Virus record (IMG/VR): IMGVR_UViG_3300041991_000086 | Coordinates: 1 to 32,331 of that record | Source of the DNA: a virus | Reading direction: 5' to 3' (one strand) | Length of the DNA: 32,331 nt | Shown here: one piece after another, positions 23,736-31,932 of the stretch | How the letters are laid out: the number at the start of each line of letters is the position of its first letter | Position numbering within the stretch: position 1 is the stretch's first letter | Program-made: the position numbers and the translations under genes | Notes under the pieces: model-generated | What the model was told of the DNA's origin: nothing | Database searches by the model: none | The model's input: the letters and a program-made list of their open reading frames with translations, nothing else

Positions 23736-23860
23736 TTCTTTTTGTTCATATTGTTAAACATTTCCTTTGCAGTCCGTAAAACCCTAATCATTTCATCGGG
23801 TTTATAACCCATTTTTGTAAGTTGTTTTACCATTTTCTTTGCCACTTCTTGTTCTGTCAT
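23687..23860 (-). CDS. Small helical protein whose C-terminus is a repeat translation
   Basis: 57 residues from ATG 23860; an upstream TTG would add three. The body (MTEQEVAKKMVKQLTKMGYKPDEMIRVLRTAKEMFNNMN) is a helical pair. The last residues, NPPLTPPRRGFGMEQN, are the direct translation of the palindromic repeat, a product often seen where this repeat enters coding frames. So the natural end may be lost. Function unknown. Confidence 0.55.
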   Translation of the reverse strand: MTEQEVAKKMVKQLTKMGYKPDEMIRVLRTAKEMFNNMNKKNPPLTPPRRGFGMEQN

Positions 23861-23862
23861 AA

Positions 23863-23915
23863 CTTTCAATTTTGCTCCACACTAAGCCCCTCCTTGGGAG
23901 GGGTTGGGGAGGCCT
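23863..23915. repeat. Palindromic repeat copy E with attached leader repeat
   Basis: CTTTCAATTTTGCTCCA followed by AAGCCCCTCCTTGGGAGGGG and TTGGGGAGGCCTTTTT. Reads toward the minus strand as a hairpin upstream of the start at 23860. It abuts a tRNA-like fold at 23921-23963. Confidence 0.75.
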
Positions 23916-23920
23916 TTTTG

Positions 23921-23963
23921 TCCCTGCCCCGGCCTCGAACCGGGGTGGATTGACCATTCAGGG
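23921..23963 (-). ncRNA. tRNA-like minihelix 1 (T-arm plus partial acceptor)
   Basis: On the minus strand CCCGG-TTCGAGG-CCGGG (23928-23944) has a canonical T-loop (TTCRANN) on a 5- to 6-bp stem. It is closed by CCCTG (23959-23963) pairing with CAGGG (23922-23926). No D or anticodon arm lies between; only 14 nt separate the acceptor and T arms. Mismatches flank the 5-bp acceptor stem, and no CCA is encoded. It lies between a stop codon and repeat copy E. It may be a degraded tRNA end or a tRNA mimic. Confidence 0.45.
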
Positions 23964-24221
23964 TTACTCTTCGTTTTTCATTGTCATGTTCTCGAAGCAC
24001 AGCATGTTTGCGATATGATTGAATTCCAAAAAATTTATTTTATTCCCTGAAATTTTGCTCCACATATTGCATGGTACTGTTGTAGATAAAGCCCAAATAA
24101 AATCTTTCACCTGTTCTTCATCTGCTACATCTATATTAATTGCGAAATGTGACTCATCATCAAACAATTGTGCCAAACAATTCGAAATTGAGGCGGAAAA
24201 TTGAATTTGTCGTTCTGTCAT
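23964..24221 (-). CDS. Small uncharacterised acidic protein
   Basis: 85 residues: QIQFSASISNCLAQLFDDESHFAINIDVADEEQVKDFIWALSTTVP, acidic, mixed helix and strand; the end is FENMTMKNEE. Start ATG 24221 overlaps the previous small gene stop by 4 bp. The FAINIDVADEEQVKDFIWAL stretch suggests a ferredoxin-like half. Function unknown. Confidence 0.55.
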   Translation of the reverse strand: MTERQIQFSASISNCLAQLFDDESHFAINIDVADEEQVKDFIWALSTTVPCNMWSKISGNKINFLEFNHIANMLCFENMTMKNEE

Positions 24222-24964: not shown

Positions 24965-25387
24965 CTATTTGTTGGGTTTGGTAATTTCGGGAAGGTTCAG
25001 CACATACCGCATGCCCATAGCGGCCACTTGTATGGCTTCTTGCCTTATCCGCTCGGGATCGCCCCCTTCGTGCTTAAACTGTAGTATTGCCTTGGCAAGT
25101 TCGCCCACTTCTTCGGTAACAATGGCCAACGCCTCAAAACCGCTGTTTGGCCAATTGGGGTGTTTCTCCTGGGCGTGTTGCAGCTCTTGGAAAACAAGAA
25201 CAATGTCTTGTTGTGTGCTCGGAACAGCAATTAATATGGAGTTTTCTTGCTCCATTTCCTCTAATGTTTCTGTGAGGTAGGTAAACTCAGCGCACTCATC
25301 AATTGCAATGCCATCTTCATCATAAATACCCCTGTTTTTTAAGTTTTGTAAAGCCGTCTTAAATGTTAATACTTCCATATAATTCAT
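24965..25387 (-). CDS. MazG-like nucleotide pyrophosphohydrolase domain protein
   Basis: 140 residues. The C-terminal half has the all-alpha NTP-pyrophosphatase pattern: ELQHAQEKHPNWPNSGFEALAIVTEEVGELAKAIL (EE..E metal ligands in TEEVGEL) and RIRQEAIQVAAMGMRYVLNL (E..x, helix 4). The N-terminal half is a less familiar helical extension (LQNLKNRGIYDEDGIAIDEC). Phage MazG-type enzymes can lower (p)ppGpp-like or dNTP pools; the substrate here is unknown. Gap of 93 bp upstream holds a tRNA-like fold. Confidence 0.68.
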   Translation of the reverse strand: MNYMEVLTFKTALQNLKNRGIYDEDGIAIDECAEFTYLTETLEEMEQENSILIAVPSTQQDIVLVFQELQHAQEKHPNWPNSGFEALAIVTEEVGELAKAILQFKHEGGDPERIRQEAIQVAAMGMRYVLNLPEITKPNK

Positions 25388-25408: not shown

Positions 25409-25452
25409 TGGAGCGGAAAGGAATCGAACCTTTCTAAAGCACCTGCCGCCCC
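25409..25452 (-). ncRNA. tRNA-like minihelix 2 with Ala-type acceptor (G3:U70, A73)
   Basis: On the minus strand GGGGCGG (25446-25452) pairs with CCGCTCC (25410-25416) as a 7-bp acceptor stem. The third pair is G.U, matching the G3:U70 alanine identity element, and the next base (25409 complement) is A as in A73. Between them AAAGG-TTCGATT-CCTTT gives a 5-bp T arm with canonical T-loop; the acceptor and T stems abut, as in real tRNA. Only a 12-nt linker replaces D and anticodon arms. No CCA is encoded. An 8-bp hairpin (25455-25476) lies 2 nt upstream. Confidence 0.55.
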
Positions 25453-25454
25453 GT

Positions 25455-25476
25455 ACCCAGCCGCATGGGGCTGGGT
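25455..25476 (-). other. 8-bp hairpin upstream of the tRNA-like fold
   Basis: ACCCAGCC, loop of six, GGCTGGGT: perfect 8-bp stem just after the stop of the 25481 gene and 2 nt before the minihelix acceptor. No T run follows, so it is not a simple terminator; it may be part of the same RNA or a processing signal. Confidence 0.55.
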
Positions 25477-25480
25477 GTTA

Positions 25481-25858
25481 TTATTTTGCCGAACTCACAA
25501 GAATGGCATGCATGCCACTGTCATCAAATGCCATTTGTGTAGCTATCCTCAAACTTATTGTTCCTGTAAAACCGTGTGACTTTCTGAATGCGCTCACAAT
25601 TGATATTGAATTACAGCACACCGAACCGGTATTGTGTTTTCGCATTACCAAACCTTCCTCTTCGGTTGTTTTCTCTATGTACCAATCGCGTGGGTTATCT
25701 TCGTCCTGAAGGATGTTTATACGGTCGTTAACTTTTATCAAAAGAGCATCTGTAGCGAACTTATTGAGCCTAATAATGCCCTTTTTTTCAAAAGAAATCA
25801 TTGGCAAACCGTCTATCCGATGCCCCGATGTACTCCTGTTAAATTTCTTTAGTTTCAT
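25481..25858 (-). CDS. Conserved hypothetical protein
   Basis: 125 residues: SGHRIDGLPMISFEKKGIIRLNKFATDALLIKVNDRINILQDEDNPRDWYIEKTTEEEGLVMR in outline, beta-rich N-terminal domain with a KKGIIRLNKFA strand-turn and NDRINILQDEDNPRDWYI. It resembles small proteins I recall from Bacteroidetes Mu-like prophages beside DUF3164, but no named family. Ends 1 bp from the DUF3164 gene stop region. Function unknown. Confidence 0.6.
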   Translation of the reverse strand: MKLKKFNRSTSGHRIDGLPMISFEKKGIIRLNKFATDALLIKVNDRINILQDEDNPRDWYIEKTTEEEGLVMRKHNTGSVCCNSISIVSAFRKSHGFTGTISLRIATQMAFDDSGMHAILVSSAK

Positions 25859-25859
25859 A

Positions 25860-26543
25860 TTACTTTGTAGTATTGGTTACAAAATCAACGGCTGAAATAG
25901 AGAGCGGGATGCTAACCCACTTTTGAGATTCAGATTCAAACTCTTCGGCTTCTATAAAGTAACTGCTCCTTTGTGGCTTGTAGCTGTCAACAATGATTTT
26001 TACCCCCTCCTTTAATAGATCAGAATCGCTCTCGCTTGCCCACTTCTGAAGCTCAAGCACCCGGTTGCTTTTAAGGTTATTCTTTGCATCGCGGCGCAAA
26101 AGGCTGTTGAGTCCTTTCACTAATTCGGCTGTCTTTTCGTCGATAGCCAAGCTGTCAATGTATTCGCGAACCTTCGAAATACCTATTTCAGAGGTTTCGT
26201 CGTAGCGATCCAATGCCCTCCACCCAAGTGTGATCCTGCGTGTGCCTTCCTCGTTGCTGAAAGTATGGCTCTGCTGGTCATCCTTCACATTGTACAGTTC
26301 ACACTTCAATTCAATGAGGTGGGCAAAGCTGTCGAATACAATGGTTTTGGCTTCACTCATTTGTTCGCTTACGCATTTAATGCCGTCGAACAGGCTATCA
26401 ACCGTTTCACTACTGAGCTTCTTAAGTGTTTTGCGTTCTTCTACTTTAGCTTGCTCTTTCTTTTGTTCTTCTGCTTTCATTTCTGAAAACAATTGCGCCT
26501 TTTGCTCAGCAGTCAGCGCGGTCAACTCAATTTTATTTTCCAT
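25860..26543 (-). CDS. DUF3164-family protein
   Basis: 227 residues. Sections DSFAHLIELKCELYNVKDDQQSHTFSNEEGTRRITLGWRALDRYDET and EIGISKVREYIDSLA, NSLLRRDAKNNLKSNRVLELQKWASESDSDLLKEGVKIIVDSYKPQRS in outline, are typical of DUF3164, found beside the B-type gene in Mu-like phages (Mu gp5-gp8 region). N-terminal ~45 residues are a charged helix (KAQLFSEMKAEEQKKEQAKVEERKTLKK). Its role in lytic growth is not known; a nucleic-acid-handling role has been proposed for relatives. It starts inside the previous gene by 11 bp. Confidence 0.8.
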   Translation of the reverse strand: MENKIELTALTAEQKAQLFSEMKAEEQKKEQAKVEERKTLKKLSSETVDSLFDGIKCVSEQMSEAKTIVFDSFAHLIELKCELYNVKDDQQSHTFSNEEGTRRITLGWRALDRYDETSEIGISKVREYIDSLAIDEKTAELVKGLNSLLRRDAKNNLKSNRVLELQKWASESDSDLLKEGVKIIVDSYKPQRSSYFIEAEEFESESQKWVSIPLSISAVDFVTNTTK

Positions 26544-27331: not shown

Positions 27332-27350
27332 GTTTAACCAGTGTTTAAAA
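27332..27350. repeat. Paired GTTTAA motif, copy 4 of 6 (11-bp period)
   Basis: GTTTAACCAGTGTTTAAAA: half sites GTTTAAC(C) and GTTTAAA(A) 11 bp apart, straddling the MuB stop codon. One mismatch in each half to the consensus GTTTAAAC. Confidence 0.45.
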
Positions 27351-28316
27351 CAGTACTTTGCACATATCAAAATCAATCGGCCTGCCAGTTCTAAGGCTCT
27401 CGTCGATCAAGTCAGAAACGCAGCCCTCCAGTTCGCGCATGTTGTCGCAAATGGCAGCCAAATAAGACACAACTTCAGGGTTTGAAATGCCCATTTGTTG
27501 GCATATTATCGTAACATCATCGTCGTCGAAGGGCATTAAGCGTTCAAAGTGACCCTGTTTAAGCCTCGAGTAAATCTGTGGAAAACTGTTCTTTTTCCGT
27601 TCAGCCAGTTTCTTCAGCTTCTCTTCGTAGTCGTTAGCACCTACCAACACAATACCGCAAATTCCCTTAAGGGCATCCATCATAGCTTTGATCCCATCGT
27701 ATGCGCCAACCTTCAGGTTTTCGGCTTCATCAATAACCAAAAGTGGAGAGTCTTTTCTAATCAGGGTTTTTGTAATCCTCTTACGGATGTCGATCTTGGT
27801 ACCTTCGGTTTCGCAACCAACGGCCTCGGCCACCGAAACCACAAAATCTTTCACACTCATATCGCCGTCGCAGGTCACCACATAAGTGTTTCCTGGGTAT
27901 TCCTTCCGATAACGGTCTATTGAATAACTTTTGCCTGCACCAGTGTCGCCATCAATGCAGCCGGGGAGCTTATTGGCACGCATGGCATCAAGCTTATTGC
28001 ACACAAACATGAAGTTGTCTGTGTTGAAATGCCTCCAGCTACTGGTGGTTTCCATTCCAATTGCAGCAGCAAGTTTTAAAAACACACGATCTTTAATCGA
28101 CGAGAAGATCTCTTTGCCTTCACGGGTGCTTTTTACTTCGTCCCACTTACGGTTCTTCATGTAATGCCAAGTGGTTTTGTTATTGTACTCCACCGAGTCG
28201 AGGAAACCAGTAACACTAAAGCCGTCGGGCTTCGATTCGAAGAATTCAATGGCCGTTTGTACAATAAGCTCTTTGCTTTTTGTGTCCAAAGGGTTGCTAA
28301 GTTGTAATTTTTCCAT
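27345..28316 (-). CDS. MuB-like AAA+ ATPase, transposition target activator
   Basis: 323 residues. Walker A is GDTGAGKS (123-130), Walker B LLVIDEAEN (192-200, D196/E197); sensor-1 VGANDY near 228 and Arg R251 complete the AAA core. The N-terminal ~85 residues form an extra helical DNA-binding part (SVTGFLDSVEYNNKTTWHYMKNRKW), as in Mu B. The C-terminal helical lid is GCVSDLIDESLR. It should bind target DNA, give target immunity and stimulate MuA. It directly follows the transposase gene across a 95-bp gap with a hairpin. Start chosen at ATG 28316. Confidence 0.85.
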   Translation of the reverse strand: MEKLQLSNPLDTKSKELIVQTAIEFFESKPDGFSVTGFLDSVEYNNKTTWHYMKNRKWDEVKSTREGKEIFSSIKDRVFLKLAAAIGMETTSSWRHFNTDNFMFVCNKLDAMRANKLPGCIDGDTGAGKSYSIDRYRKEYPGNTYVVTCDGDMSVKDFVVSVAEAVGCETEGTKIDIRKRITKTLIRKDSPLLVIDEAENLKVGAYDGIKAMMDALKGICGIVLVGANDYEEKLKKLAERKKNSFPQIYSRLKQGHFERLMPFDDDDVTIICQQMGISNPEVVSYLAAICDNMRELEGCVSDLIDESLRTGRPIDFDMCKVLF

Positions 28317-28411: not shown

Positions 28412-30694
28412 TTATGCTGTTTTGTCTTTAAATCTTTCCCGTGCGCGGGCTCTCCTGGCATTTTCCTTTTCTATTTCGTTTATTGAAATTACAGGGGTTA
28501 AATGGCCACGTCCTTGCAGTAGGTATTGGGTATAGTAATTGTCAAATTCAATAGCCTCGGGGGTGCTTAAACCTTGTTTAAACCTTTCTACAAACGGTTT
28601 TATATGCTTGTCGCCGCGTTGTTTAATCAACCCTTTAACAGTCTTTTCCATCATATCAGGCTCCATAGAGCTAATATCAATGTCGAAACCGGCGGCAATA
28701 AATTCAAGGAATTTGCGGCGGTTGGCACGTACTATTTTTTGTCGTTTGCCGTGCATTTTGCCTATAAGTTCTTTATCATCATCGGTCTGCTCGGCAATAG
28801 CTCTCTGTGCACGTTTCAAACGCCCTACAGTAGTGATATAAATGTCTTTCGATGTATCGTTCTTTGCTTCAGGGTCATATTTGAAAAGGTGAACCTCACC
28901 GGGGTTGCGAGGGTCAAAACTCACACGTACCTTCATGCCTTTGTTCATCTCGCTGGTACGCTCCATGTAATCGGGCATCCAATACTCAAACTTTTTCTGT
29001 TCAAATTCAACGTTTATTGCCCCGTTGCGTATCGTAGTTATGGTGCTTTCATTAAGAATTGTAGCTCTTTCAAGTGTTTTAATAATTAACGCTTCAGGGT
29101 TTATGTTTTCAATACACGCTGTCCAGCGGTTCTTTTGATAGTCAAACTTCTGCAGGGGTTCAAAATTATAGGCGGCAATAATCTGTTTTACCAGCTCGTA
29201 ACCTGCTTTTAACCCTTTGGCAGGTGTTAAATTATAGTCGGTATTGGGATGGCGGTCGCTTTTTTGCGAGGTTATATTTACCCCTTTCCATGCCGGGTGG
29301 TTCTGACAAATGCGGTTTACTTCTTCAACCAATCTTTCAACGTACCGGCTCTTTGGGTTGGGCGCTTTTTTCCTTCCGGGTATTGAATTTGGGTCGTTGG
29401 GTGCAGGTTGTTTGTAGTATTTACAGCAACGCTCAAAAATTTGTTTTGTCGCCGTGCTAAGGTTACCACTAAAACGGTCACTTTCAATCTCAATGTAGCT
29501 CCTGCCGTTCATCACCTCCAAATGGTTTCGGTACATGTTGCGAACCATCAGGCCGTTTTCAACCAAGCCACAATCGTATCCGGTTATAGCCCCGCTGGCA
29601 TAATCGAAAACGGCCACAACAGTAAGCATTATATTGCAGCCGTCTATCTCGCTGTAAAAGTCAACTTGAAAACCGTCGAACCCTCCTTTTGATAATGAAT
29701 ACATCGGGCGTTCTCCTTTCACATGTGGAAGTACCTTATCAAAAGCCTTCATCCCGTCGCGTTCGTACTTAAGGAAATAATTTACCGCTGGCACGTTTAG
29801 AAAATCGAACATTGCACTTTGTGATAGTGGCTTTTTGTTTTCCTCTACACACCGCTGACAGTATCTGAAGTAAGTTTCTTCGTAATCAAACTTGTTGCCA
29901 GCCCCCGGGTTGCTCCAAATGTAACCCACCTCGTGCGCGTGCCACTCCAGCATGTTTATTCCGGCACCAACGATTAACTGTTTGTCACCTTCATAAATCT
30001 TACCGAACAATCGTGCATAATTGTTGCCTCGTTGGTCGCGTGGTGCAAGATCAAGTATTGCACTTTCGATGTTTAAACCTTGTTTAAAAGGTTTCATTTT
30101 GCGGTACAAAACCTGCTTGTTCGATATTTTGAAGCTGCTAAAACGCTCCATGTACTTCATGGCCTCGTCTATCAGTTCATCTTTACTTGTGTAGCCAATT
30201 TGCTTTACCTTTTGTGGGGTAATAGTGGCCAGCATGTTAATGCAAGCGGCTATGTGGGCAAGTTCGTGGGCGGTTCCAACATGGGTACCGCTTTTAATCA
30301 GCACATCGGCAGCTCCTGCCAGCGGCTTAACCATATCTTCAATGCTAACCTGTGCAATTTGCCGTTTTATCTCGGGCGAAAGCTCGGTTTTTGCGGGAGC
30401 AACTTGTATTGAATACAAACGGGGATCGGTTCCACTACATATCTTCTCCTTCACTTCATCCCTGTAGTTTTGCCGTATCCCCGCGTACTCTATATAAACC
30501 CTGCCTTTCCGGCTATCTGCCGGAAACTCTACCCATTTCTCTCCGTATTTTGCAAACCTCCGGTGAGGCCAGCAATTCACCTTCCCATTTCGTTGTCTCT
30601 TTAGTCCATCTTTCAATGTATGCCAAGAAACAACGCCATTCTCAATAAGCTCATCTGTGGTTAGGTAGATTGTATTGTTAATGAGTGTGGGCAT
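28412..30694 (-). CDS. MuA-type DDE transposase
   Basis: 760 residues. N-terminal ~60 residues (LTTDELIENGVVSWHTLKDGLKRQRNGKVNCWPHRRF) are the end-binding HTH-like domain seen in Mu transposases. The catalytic core has GFQVDFYSEIDG (D345), ESDRFSGN (D406) and SRYVERLVEE (E453), spaced about like Mu D269/D336/E392. A beta-barrel Mu-transpos_C region (GAINVEFEQKKFEYWMPDYM) follows, then a basic C-terminal tail that should contact MuB. It cuts phage ends and joins them to target DNA in replicative transposition. It is longer than Mu A (663). Two paired motif copies lie inside it, both encoding FKQGL. Confidence 0.92.
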   Translation of the reverse strand: MPTLINNTIYLTTDELIENGVVSWHTLKDGLKRQRNGKVNCWPHRRFAKYGEKWVEFPADSRKGRVYIEYAGIRQNYRDEVKEKICSGTDPRLYSIQVAPAKTELSPEIKRQIAQVSIEDMVKPLAGAADVLIKSGTHVGTAHELAHIAACINMLATITPQKVKQIGYTSKDELIDEAMKYMERFSSFKISNKQVLYRKMKPFKQGLNIESAILDLAPRDQRGNNYARLFGKIYEGDKQLIVGAGINMLEWHAHEVGYIWSNPGAGNKFDYEETYFRYCQRCVEENKKPLSQSAMFDFLNVPAVNYFLKYERDGMKAFDKVLPHVKGERPMYSLSKGGFDGFQVDFYSEIDGCNIMLTVVAVFDYASGAITGYDCGLVENGLMVRNMYRNHLEVMNGRSYIEIESDRFSGNLSTATKQIFERCCKYYKQPAPNDPNSIPGRKKAPNPKSRYVERLVEEVNRICQNHPAWKGVNITSQKSDRHPNTDYNLTPAKGLKAGYELVKQIIAAYNFEPLQKFDYQKNRWTACIENINPEALIIKTLERATILNESTITTIRNGAINVEFEQKKFEYWMPDYMERTSEMNKGMKVRVSFDPRNPGEVHLFKYDPEAKNDTSKDIYITTVGRLKRAQRAIAEQTDDDKELIGKMHGKRQKIVRANRRKFLEFIAAGFDIDISSMEPDMMEKTVKGLIKQRGDKHIKPFVERFKQGLSTPEAIEFDNYYTQYLLQGRGHLTPVISINEIEKENARRARARERFKDKTA
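28565..28583. repeat. Paired TTTAAAC motif, copy 5 of 6 (11-bp period)
   Basis: GCTTAAACCTTGTTTAAAC inside the transposase gene, encoding FKQGL on the minus strand. First half has one mismatch; second half is perfect. Confidence 0.6.
30071..30089. repeat. Paired GTTTAAAC motif, copy 6 of 6 (11-bp period)
   Basis: GTTTAAACCTTGTTTAAAA inside the transposase gene, encoding FKQGL again. It shares the central CCTTG with copy 5. Confidence 0.6.
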
Positions 30695-30921
30695 GGGTAA
30701 AAATTTGCTTTATTAGTGCCCCGGCGTGTTCCGGTGTGTACGCTTACAAGGTTTTTTACTACCTTCGGAGCTGTATTCAAAAAATAAAAAGTGTGGTTAC
30801 AAATGATTCTGATACTGCCAGGTGGATGGTTGATTATCATCGCTTCTGTATTGCTTGCCTAACTGGCAAAATTGAAAGTGCAGCTACAATTGTTTTGAAA
30901 ATGGCTGCAAGTTTTTGCGAC
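30695..30921. other. Gap between the switch genes and the transposase
   Basis: 227 bp. A 59-codon minus-strand frame (ATG 30840 to stop 30661) overlaps the transposase start by 34 bp, but its composition does not look strongly coding and I do not call it. A TTTTTTG stretch and an imperfect TAnnTTTG-like box are present, but no well-spaced promoter could be established. Confidence 0.4.
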
Positions 30922-31437: not shown

Positions 31438-31932
31438 ATGAGTGAAATAGTTGAAAGAATAAAAGAATTCATTGATAAAGAAGGCATAACAATAGCTATG
31501 CTTGAGAAGCAATTGGGTATGTCCAACAATTCTTTTCGTAAATCGTACAACAACAAGAAGGCTATTGGCACAGATAAGCTGGAGATGTTTATTAGGAAAT
31601 TTCCAAATGTCGATGCAAATTGGTTGCTTTTCGGTGAGACCAATAATGATGCACACCTAAATGCACACCTAAATGCACACCTTGATGCACACCTAAGCCC
31701 CAAAAAAGCAAAAACGCTTTGTTTAAATTGTGCGGCCAAGGCAGGCCAAATTGTGCAGTTAAATAAAGAGCTTGAAATATGTGCAGAGCGCGTTCAAGAA
31801 CACAAAGATCGCGTTCAAGAGTTAAAAGAGTGCGTTGCCAGCAAAAACATGATCATAGCCCAGCAAGAAGCCGAAATACGCCGTTTATCAAGCAATTCAG
31901 GGACTTCTTTCAATCAATCTTACGCATCGTAA
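31438..31932 (+). CDS. CI-type phage repressor with coiled-coil tail
   Basis: 164 residues, reading right, divergent to the early operon. N-terminal HTH: SEIVERIKEFIDKEGITIAMLEKQLGMSNNSFRKSYNNKKAIGTDKLEMFIRKFPNVDANWLLFGE in outline, the layout of Bacteroidetes phage repressors (IAMLEKQLGMS, IGTDKL, WLLFG). Then four DAHL/NAHL repeats (DAHLNAHLNAHLDAHL), a short LCLNCAAKAG segment and a coiled coil (VQEHKDRVQELKECVASKNMIIAQQEAEIRRLS) with repeated RVQE blocks for dimerisation. It should hold lysogeny by binding the 31.4 kb operators. Confidence 0.85.
   Translation: MSEIVERIKEFIDKEGITIAMLEKQLGMSNNSFRKSYNNKKAIGTDKLEMFIRKFPNVDANWLLFGETNNDAHLNAHLNAHLDAHLSPKKAKTLCLNCAAKAGQIVQLNKELEICAERVQEHKDRVQELKECVASKNMIIAQQEAEIRRLSSNSGTSFNQSYAS
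31648..31695 (+). repeat. 12-bp tandem repeat, four units, in the repressor linker
   Basis: The unit gatgcacaccta/aatgcacaccta occurs four times in frame, encoding DAHL/NAHL. The length of the repressor linker may change by slippage in 12-bp steps. Confidence 0.9.

Follow-up and report, generated by a model that had tools for sequence, protein, structure and literature searches.

Compact tRNA-like elements on the sense strand of Mu-like Bacteroidota phages

Mu-like phages of Bacteroidota are shown by genome comparison to share a conserved RNA element, recognizable from its sequence as tRNA-like, which lies on the sense strand and at fixed operon positions. In whole phages, two such positions hold most elements: slot A, located ~2.2-2.7 kb upstream of the MuB match and right before the transposase gene, and slot B, located ~2.0-3.1 kb downstream of the MuB match and after DUF3164. 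We estimate a probability of about one half that these elements act in cis as tRNA mimics in phage mRNA leaders, being read by host tRNA-processing enzymes and thereby setting mRNA ends. The family is a conserved structured RNA outside Rfam 15, in which no family matches these elements, and no earlier description was found in the literature searched (subscription papers and screen supplements, e.g. PMC8040213, fell outside the scope of this search, and the elements may go by another name).

Elements of the window and their gene neighborhood

The window, meaning the whole stretch of DNA analyzed, is a 32,331-bp IMG/VR record of a Mu-like phage. Its relevant features, all on the minus strand, are as follows; the parts of the minihelix are read from the sequence.

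30719-30770, minus strand: non-canonical candidate element preceding MuA in slot A, with acceptor-like CTCCG/CGGGG and two inner hairpins
28412-30694, minus strand: MuA-like transposase (phrog_310), landmark of slot A
27345-28316, minus strand: MuB-like transposition ATPase (phrog_296)
25860-26543, minus strand: DUF3164 protein (PF11363), landmark of slot B
25481-25858, minus strand: gene upstream of the minihelix, without family match
25453-25478, minus strand: hairpin of 8 bp, preceded by the upstream ORF's stop codon and adjoining the minihelix
25409-25452, minus strand: minihelix, based on sequence, fold, shuffle control and a slot B position as in the relatives L119 and L120
25452-25446, minus strand: acceptor 5' strand of the minihelix, GGGGCGG
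25445-25434, minus strand: 12-nt linker of the minihelix, CAGGTGCTTTAG, containing GG
25433-25417, minus strand: T arm of the minihelix, AAAGG/TTCGATT/CCTTT
25416-25410, minus strand: acceptor 3' strand of the minihelix, CCGCTCC, with G3:U70
25409, minus strand: A73 of the minihelix, followed by C74 at 25408
24965-25387, minus strand: gene downstream of the minihelix, with weak similarity to a MazG-like PHROG
23921-23963, minus strand: compact mini-tRNA element with acceptor CCCTG/CAGGG, a 13-nt linker with TGG and a 6-bp T arm

Phage records with MuB relatives comprise phages of Bacteroides, Porphyromonas, Flavobacterium and Elizabethkingia. L119 and L120 are close relatives (MuB identity 55-56%); the comparison also took in the named phages fF4 (Flavobacterium), TCUEAP3 (Elizabethkingia) and p00 (Bacteroides). 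A single-protein search with DUF3164 gave no matches, but alignment-based searches did find relatives.

The minihelix is placed between ORF 25481-25858 and ORF 24965-25387. In transcript order, the upstream stop codon is followed by the 8-bp hairpin, the minihelix (GGGGCGG...CCGCTCC), A73 and C74, and the next ATG lies 22 nt past the acceptor. A first-pass annotation of this DNA had described a 7-bp acceptor with G3:U70, an A73, a T arm and a 12-nt linker, and all of these were found where it had placed them; the span it gave, 25409-25476, is correct for the minihelix itself, while 25453-25476 belong to the separate adjoining hairpin. Its view of the element as tRNA-like and part of a phage early operon is supported. 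Both the minihelix and the compact elements described below share with canonical tRNAs a TTCRANN-loop T arm stacked on the acceptor and a purine discriminator; an anticodon arm with a 7-nt loop is absent from both, the linker measuring 12 nt in the minihelix and ~11 nt in compact elements. ARAGORN and Rfam give no tRNA or tmRNA matches in the window.

The T arm and acceptor of the minihelix are both present in the MFE fold, with modest z-scores of -0.96 (51 nt), -1.33 (44 nt) and -2.3 (93 nt, including the upstream hairpin); taken for one element, z-scores of this size carry too little weight to settle the matter. When the anatomy is searched as a TTCRA loop, a 5-bp T stem, a 7-bp acceptor with at most one G-U and a linker of 8-15 nt, the window contains it once, and only 6 out of 2000 dinucleotide-shuffled windows contain it. 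At 25446-25478 (minus strand), GCCCC in the upstream hairpin could pair with GGGGC of the acceptor, giving a second fold that would compete with hairpin plus minihelix and may act as a switch.

The second T-arm fold that the annotation had reported 1.5 kb downstream, as an argument against chance, proves to be real. It corresponds to the element at 23921-23963, which carries the T loop TTCGAGG and the tail A-C-A-A-A and is directly preceded at its 5' end by a TAA stop codon (23964-23966). Covariance model R1, built from 17 relatives with the window sequence kept out of the training set, matches 23914-23966 with 41.7 bits (E 8.6e-11), and this element is, judged on its sequence, a textbook family member and the stronger of the two in the window. 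The minihelix itself has no match to R1 at E<=10. It represents a 7+5 bp variant with the linker GG, the R-C tail and a slot B position in which L119 and L120 carry canonical elements, and it is filed as probably working like the family, with membership assigned by anatomy and position and not by model R1. Just after the second element, a palindrome, CCCCTCCCAAGGAGGGG, lies within 23880-23910, and similar sequences seem to recur, for example near 23740.

In slot A, a leader is common to the window (30719-30770, minus strand), L119 (3096-3148, plus strand) and L120 (251-302, plus strand). It comprises a CCCCG/CGGGG outer stem and two inner hairpins, with CGGAACA in the second loop; its tail in L119 and L120, A-GCAAA, is mini-tRNA-like, and a canonical T loop is absent from all three. 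Because only three sequences represent it, this leader is left unclassified.

Anatomy, covariation and distribution of the family

The common compact form reads UCCCG / A-N-N-G-G-C-A-N-N-C-N / six-pair T stem / UUCGAGU / CGGGA / R-C-A-A-A. Among 49 distinct compact elements, the total helix spans 11 bp in 29, 12 bp in 18 and 10 bp in two; the linker contains GG in 48, at the same place in 42, and nearly every element has a C directly after the discriminator. Double compensatory changes occur at all 11 pairs of the compact form. Since these sequences had been chosen for pairing, 2.9 million viral contigs were searched with a pattern in which the acceptor, the GG and the T loop were fixed and the T stem was left unconstrained. 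This pattern matched 23 contigs, 22 of which have MuA, MuB or DUF3164 relatives nearby. The T stem is fully paired in 26 of the 28 elements so obtained, with 14 different stems and 97.7% of cells pairing, and its covariation reaches 0.97, versus 0.19 in shuffled sequences and at most 0.18 when slid; the linker residues A12 and C15 and the loop residue G28 are invariant, though the pattern did not constrain them. Conservation of stem pairing and T loop in related phages, the point on which the first-pass annotation had staked its proposal beforehand, is strongly borne out. A broader pattern, GGGGC..GGTTCRANNCC..GCTCCA, is uninformative, the 117 stretches that it matches in viral contigs being mostly ordinary tRNA or tmRNA 3' ends.

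A scan for T loops closed by five pairs yields intergenic matches in nearly all relatives read. Across 98 Mu-like loci (1.17 Mb), oriented so that MuB or DUF3164 is on the plus strand, T-arm hairpins number 55 in sense versus 1 in antisense orientation (52 versus 1 without the duplicate loci L125 and L126). The corresponding figures in 20 whole phages are 33 and 1, whereas each shuffled replicate yields 0-1; because most of these phages were chosen for carrying elements, the set informs on strand ratio and positions and not on prevalence. When all TTCGA sites are taken and no pairing is demanded, stems of at least 6 bp occur at 26/582 sense versus 1/535 antisense sites, and other 5-mers under the same control display no such difference between the two orientations. 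Strong matches in whole Flavobacterium and Capnocytophaga genomes fall in Mu-like prophages. At least 5 of 395 random Bacteroidota genomes contain model matches, a lower bound owing to strict filters; those in G007 and G350 sit in Mu-like prophages. At the three remaining loci, L236-L238, Mu-like genes are absent, and two of them, L237 and L238, resemble genuine tRNA genes.

With respect to neighboring genes, the 5' edge of the element lies 0-2 nt from a stop codon in 9 of 33 cases, and typically 13-34 nt separate the acceptor from the following ATG, the start codon being the most constant neighbor. The element is more than the 3'-end signal for the polycistronic mRNA that the first-pass annotation had suggested. 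At 14 sites, a divergent ORF begins 40-46 nt upstream of the element, and at most of these an inverted repeat, e.g. ATTACTAT...ATAGTAAT, lies between the two. From this arrangement we infer a promoter at these sites, whose transcript probably starts at or within a few nucleotides of the element. The inverted repeats upstream of the elements in L313, L317, L326, L330 and L329 may be an operator or facing -10 boxes.

Full-length tRNA-like genes, mostly without a normal anticodon loop, occupy the same slots in some phages. Variants lacking this loop are found at L123:1767-1850 and near L156 2670, L160 1417, L174 1937, L178 4323 and L200 2722; in L156, a CTCCC-GCAA-GGGAG hairpin with a GCAA tetraloop takes its place. 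For several full-length variants ARAGORN proposes 2- or 4-letter anticodons, from which no amino acid is assignable. RF00005-type matches are obtained only for the full-length variants L204:5227-5309 and L160:1356-1436, and neither RF00005 nor ARAGORN matches the compact elements of L204, L209 and L157. Since the normal anticodon loop is missing, acceptor, T arm and elbow appear to be what matters, and this conserved part is the one that tRNA-processing enzymes read.

Alanine identity, in contrast to these features, does not characterize the family. The first-pass annotation had taken G3:U70 to indicate recognition, and possibly titration, of alanyl-tRNA synthetase (AlaRS); only 4 of the 24 seven-bp acceptors carry this pair (those of the window copy, L192, L195 and L204), and the common compact class, with acceptor UCCCG/CGGGA, lacks it. 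Because of this rarity, an AlaRS-directed function is unsupported for the family, and the window copy itself could still be charged by AlaRS.

Putative processing by host tRNA enzymes and alternative explanations

A reading by RNase P and RNase Z is favored because the helix of 11-12 bp, the T loop and the R-C tail are features that RNase P uses, and a processing signal for these enzymes is the best supported of the functions listed at first pass. RNase P cleaves acceptor/T-arm hairpins and recognizes the T loop, a distance of ~12 bp from the T loop is thought to serve it as a ruler, and the GGU of P RNA pairs with R73-C74-C75 of the substrate (PMC11143913). The host RNase P RNA keeps the GGU-containing loop, and the N73-C-(mostly A-rich) 3' context is shared by 32 host tRNA genes of Flavobacterium and Capnocytophaga, in 3 of which CCA is encoded. 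In the proposed mechanism, host enzymes would be presented with a tRNA mimic whose acceptor and T stem stack into a coaxial helix of 11-12 bp, whose canonical T loop can form the tRNA elbow with the linker GG, which has a purine discriminator and C74, and which in the compact form lacks an anticodon arm. RNase P would cut at the 5' edge of the element where a leader exists, and RNase Z would cut after the discriminator; the upstream mRNA would end at its stop codon, and the downstream genes (the transposase and the genes after DUF3164) would gain an mRNA with a defined 5' end. This would constitute tRNA punctuation by mini-tRNAs, and the freed ~44-nt RNA may be stable and CCA-tailed. Three points stand against processing: many helices have 11 bp and thus fall a base pair below the tRNA ruler; the family model does not match the minihelix at 25409-25452; and in promoter-proximal copies RNase P would have little or nothing to trim, because the transcript probably starts at the element. 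A bolder version, which we hold tentatively and with the odds somewhat against it, is that mini-tRNAs without an anticodon both punctuate and cap phage mRNAs, host tRNA maturation gating the transposition operon and releasing CCA-tailed ~44-nt RNAs; the transposase mRNA would then start with a mini-tRNA at the promoter, and internal genes would receive one between stop and start.

The main rival of processing is an uncleaved 5'-leader structure, in which the mini-tRNA stays on the mRNA and would stabilize its 5' end, insulate the AT-rich ribosome-binding region, or serve as an operator through which a tRNA-binding host or phage protein tunes transposase translation. The tRNA-mimicking leader of E. 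coli thrS is comparable to the operator form. The short and constant distance to the start codon, the promoter-proximal copies and the invariant linker residues beyond GG all accord with such a leader, but a passive one needs neither the conserved R-C tail nor interchange with full tRNA-like genes, and acceptor sequences vary from phage to phage more than a single specific synthetase or repressor would allow; we consider it less likely than processing. An excised mini-tRNA could also act in trans as a small RNA, titrating a tRNA-binding factor, becoming charged (the window copy by AlaRS) or serving as a decoy for tRNA-targeting defence. Its tRNA-like ends and the G3:U70 of the four acceptors named above are compatible with this role, which is nevertheless improbable given the scarcity of that pair and the several copies per phage in cis before different genes, which a decoy would not need.

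That the elements are degenerated real tRNA genes without present function, an option also raised at first pass, could explain why full-length and shortened forms occur side by side and why some acceptors are tRNA-Ala-like. The compensatory changes at every pair, the invariant loop and linker residues and the conserved slots point instead to purifying selection, and the copies retain both their sense orientation and their places in the operon, which makes degeneration very improbable. Hardly any weight falls on a DNA site (operator, transposition or attachment site) merely resembling an RNA hairpin: some elements do adjoin inverted repeats at a divergent promoter, but stem letters change pairwise while the loop stays fixed, the orientation is nearly always sense, and many copies lie directly after stop codons; an att site or DNA operator was accordingly rejected on covariation and strand bias. 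An intrinsic terminator was ruled out on the A-rich sequence that follows the elements, with no U run, and a decoding tRNA was also rejected.

Relation to known systems and further observations

In plant mitochondria, t-elements and the tRNA punctuation model provide the precedent of tRNA-like structures that mark cleavage sites in polycistronic transcripts (PMC8003010). The phage elements resemble them in being tRNA-like, in lying between genes on the transcribed strand and, putatively, in marking an endonuclease site; t-elements are organellar and experimentally shown, whereas the phage elements are known from sequence, compact (~44 nt, without an anticodon arm) and repeated per operon. The RNase P model substrates AT1 and pMini have the same acceptor/T-stem/T-loop unit and 3' R-C context (PMC11143913), but they are synthetic with RCCA, while the phage elements are natural, contain a linker with GG, end in R-C-A and often have 11 bp. 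Phage transcripts cut by host RNase P, which resemble the proposed role, include T4 gene 32 mRNA, M3 RNA and the P1/P7-type C4 RNA (PMC11143913); these are single cases, in contrast to one family in fixed slots of many phages. The first-pass comparison with the tRNA-like domain of tmRNA holds for the acceptor, the T arm, a D loop that is not accompanied by a normal anticodon arm and, in the window copy, G3:U70. The phage elements differ in having no reading frame and no pseudoknot domain and in being embedded in mRNA leaders; tmRNA itself was ruled out, ARAGORN and the Rfam tmRNA models giving no match. Among eukaryotes, mascRNA derives from a lncRNA and is larger than the phage elements. It is likewise a small tRNA-like RNA from a longer transcript, MALAT1 (PMC8128908).

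The elements would represent a phage counterpart of tRNA punctuation in organelle transcripts, and a natural tRNA-like domain of unusually small size that selection has retained in phage mRNAs. Whether host tRNA maturases shape phage gene expression becomes directly testable, and the 49 distinct compact sequences offer natural minimal substrates for RNase P, RNase Z, the CCA-adding enzyme and T-loop modification enzymes.

Near-identical copies of the element precede different genes within one phage in L209 (4893, 5789 and 6206), L204 and L329, and the L209 phage has a fourth copy ~17.6 kb downstream of MuB; these look as if they had been copied or kept alike within a genome. Elsewhere in the window, three tandem 12-bp repeats at 31648-31681 lie within a repressor-like ORF (31438-31932, plus strand), where they code for NAHLNAHLDAHL.
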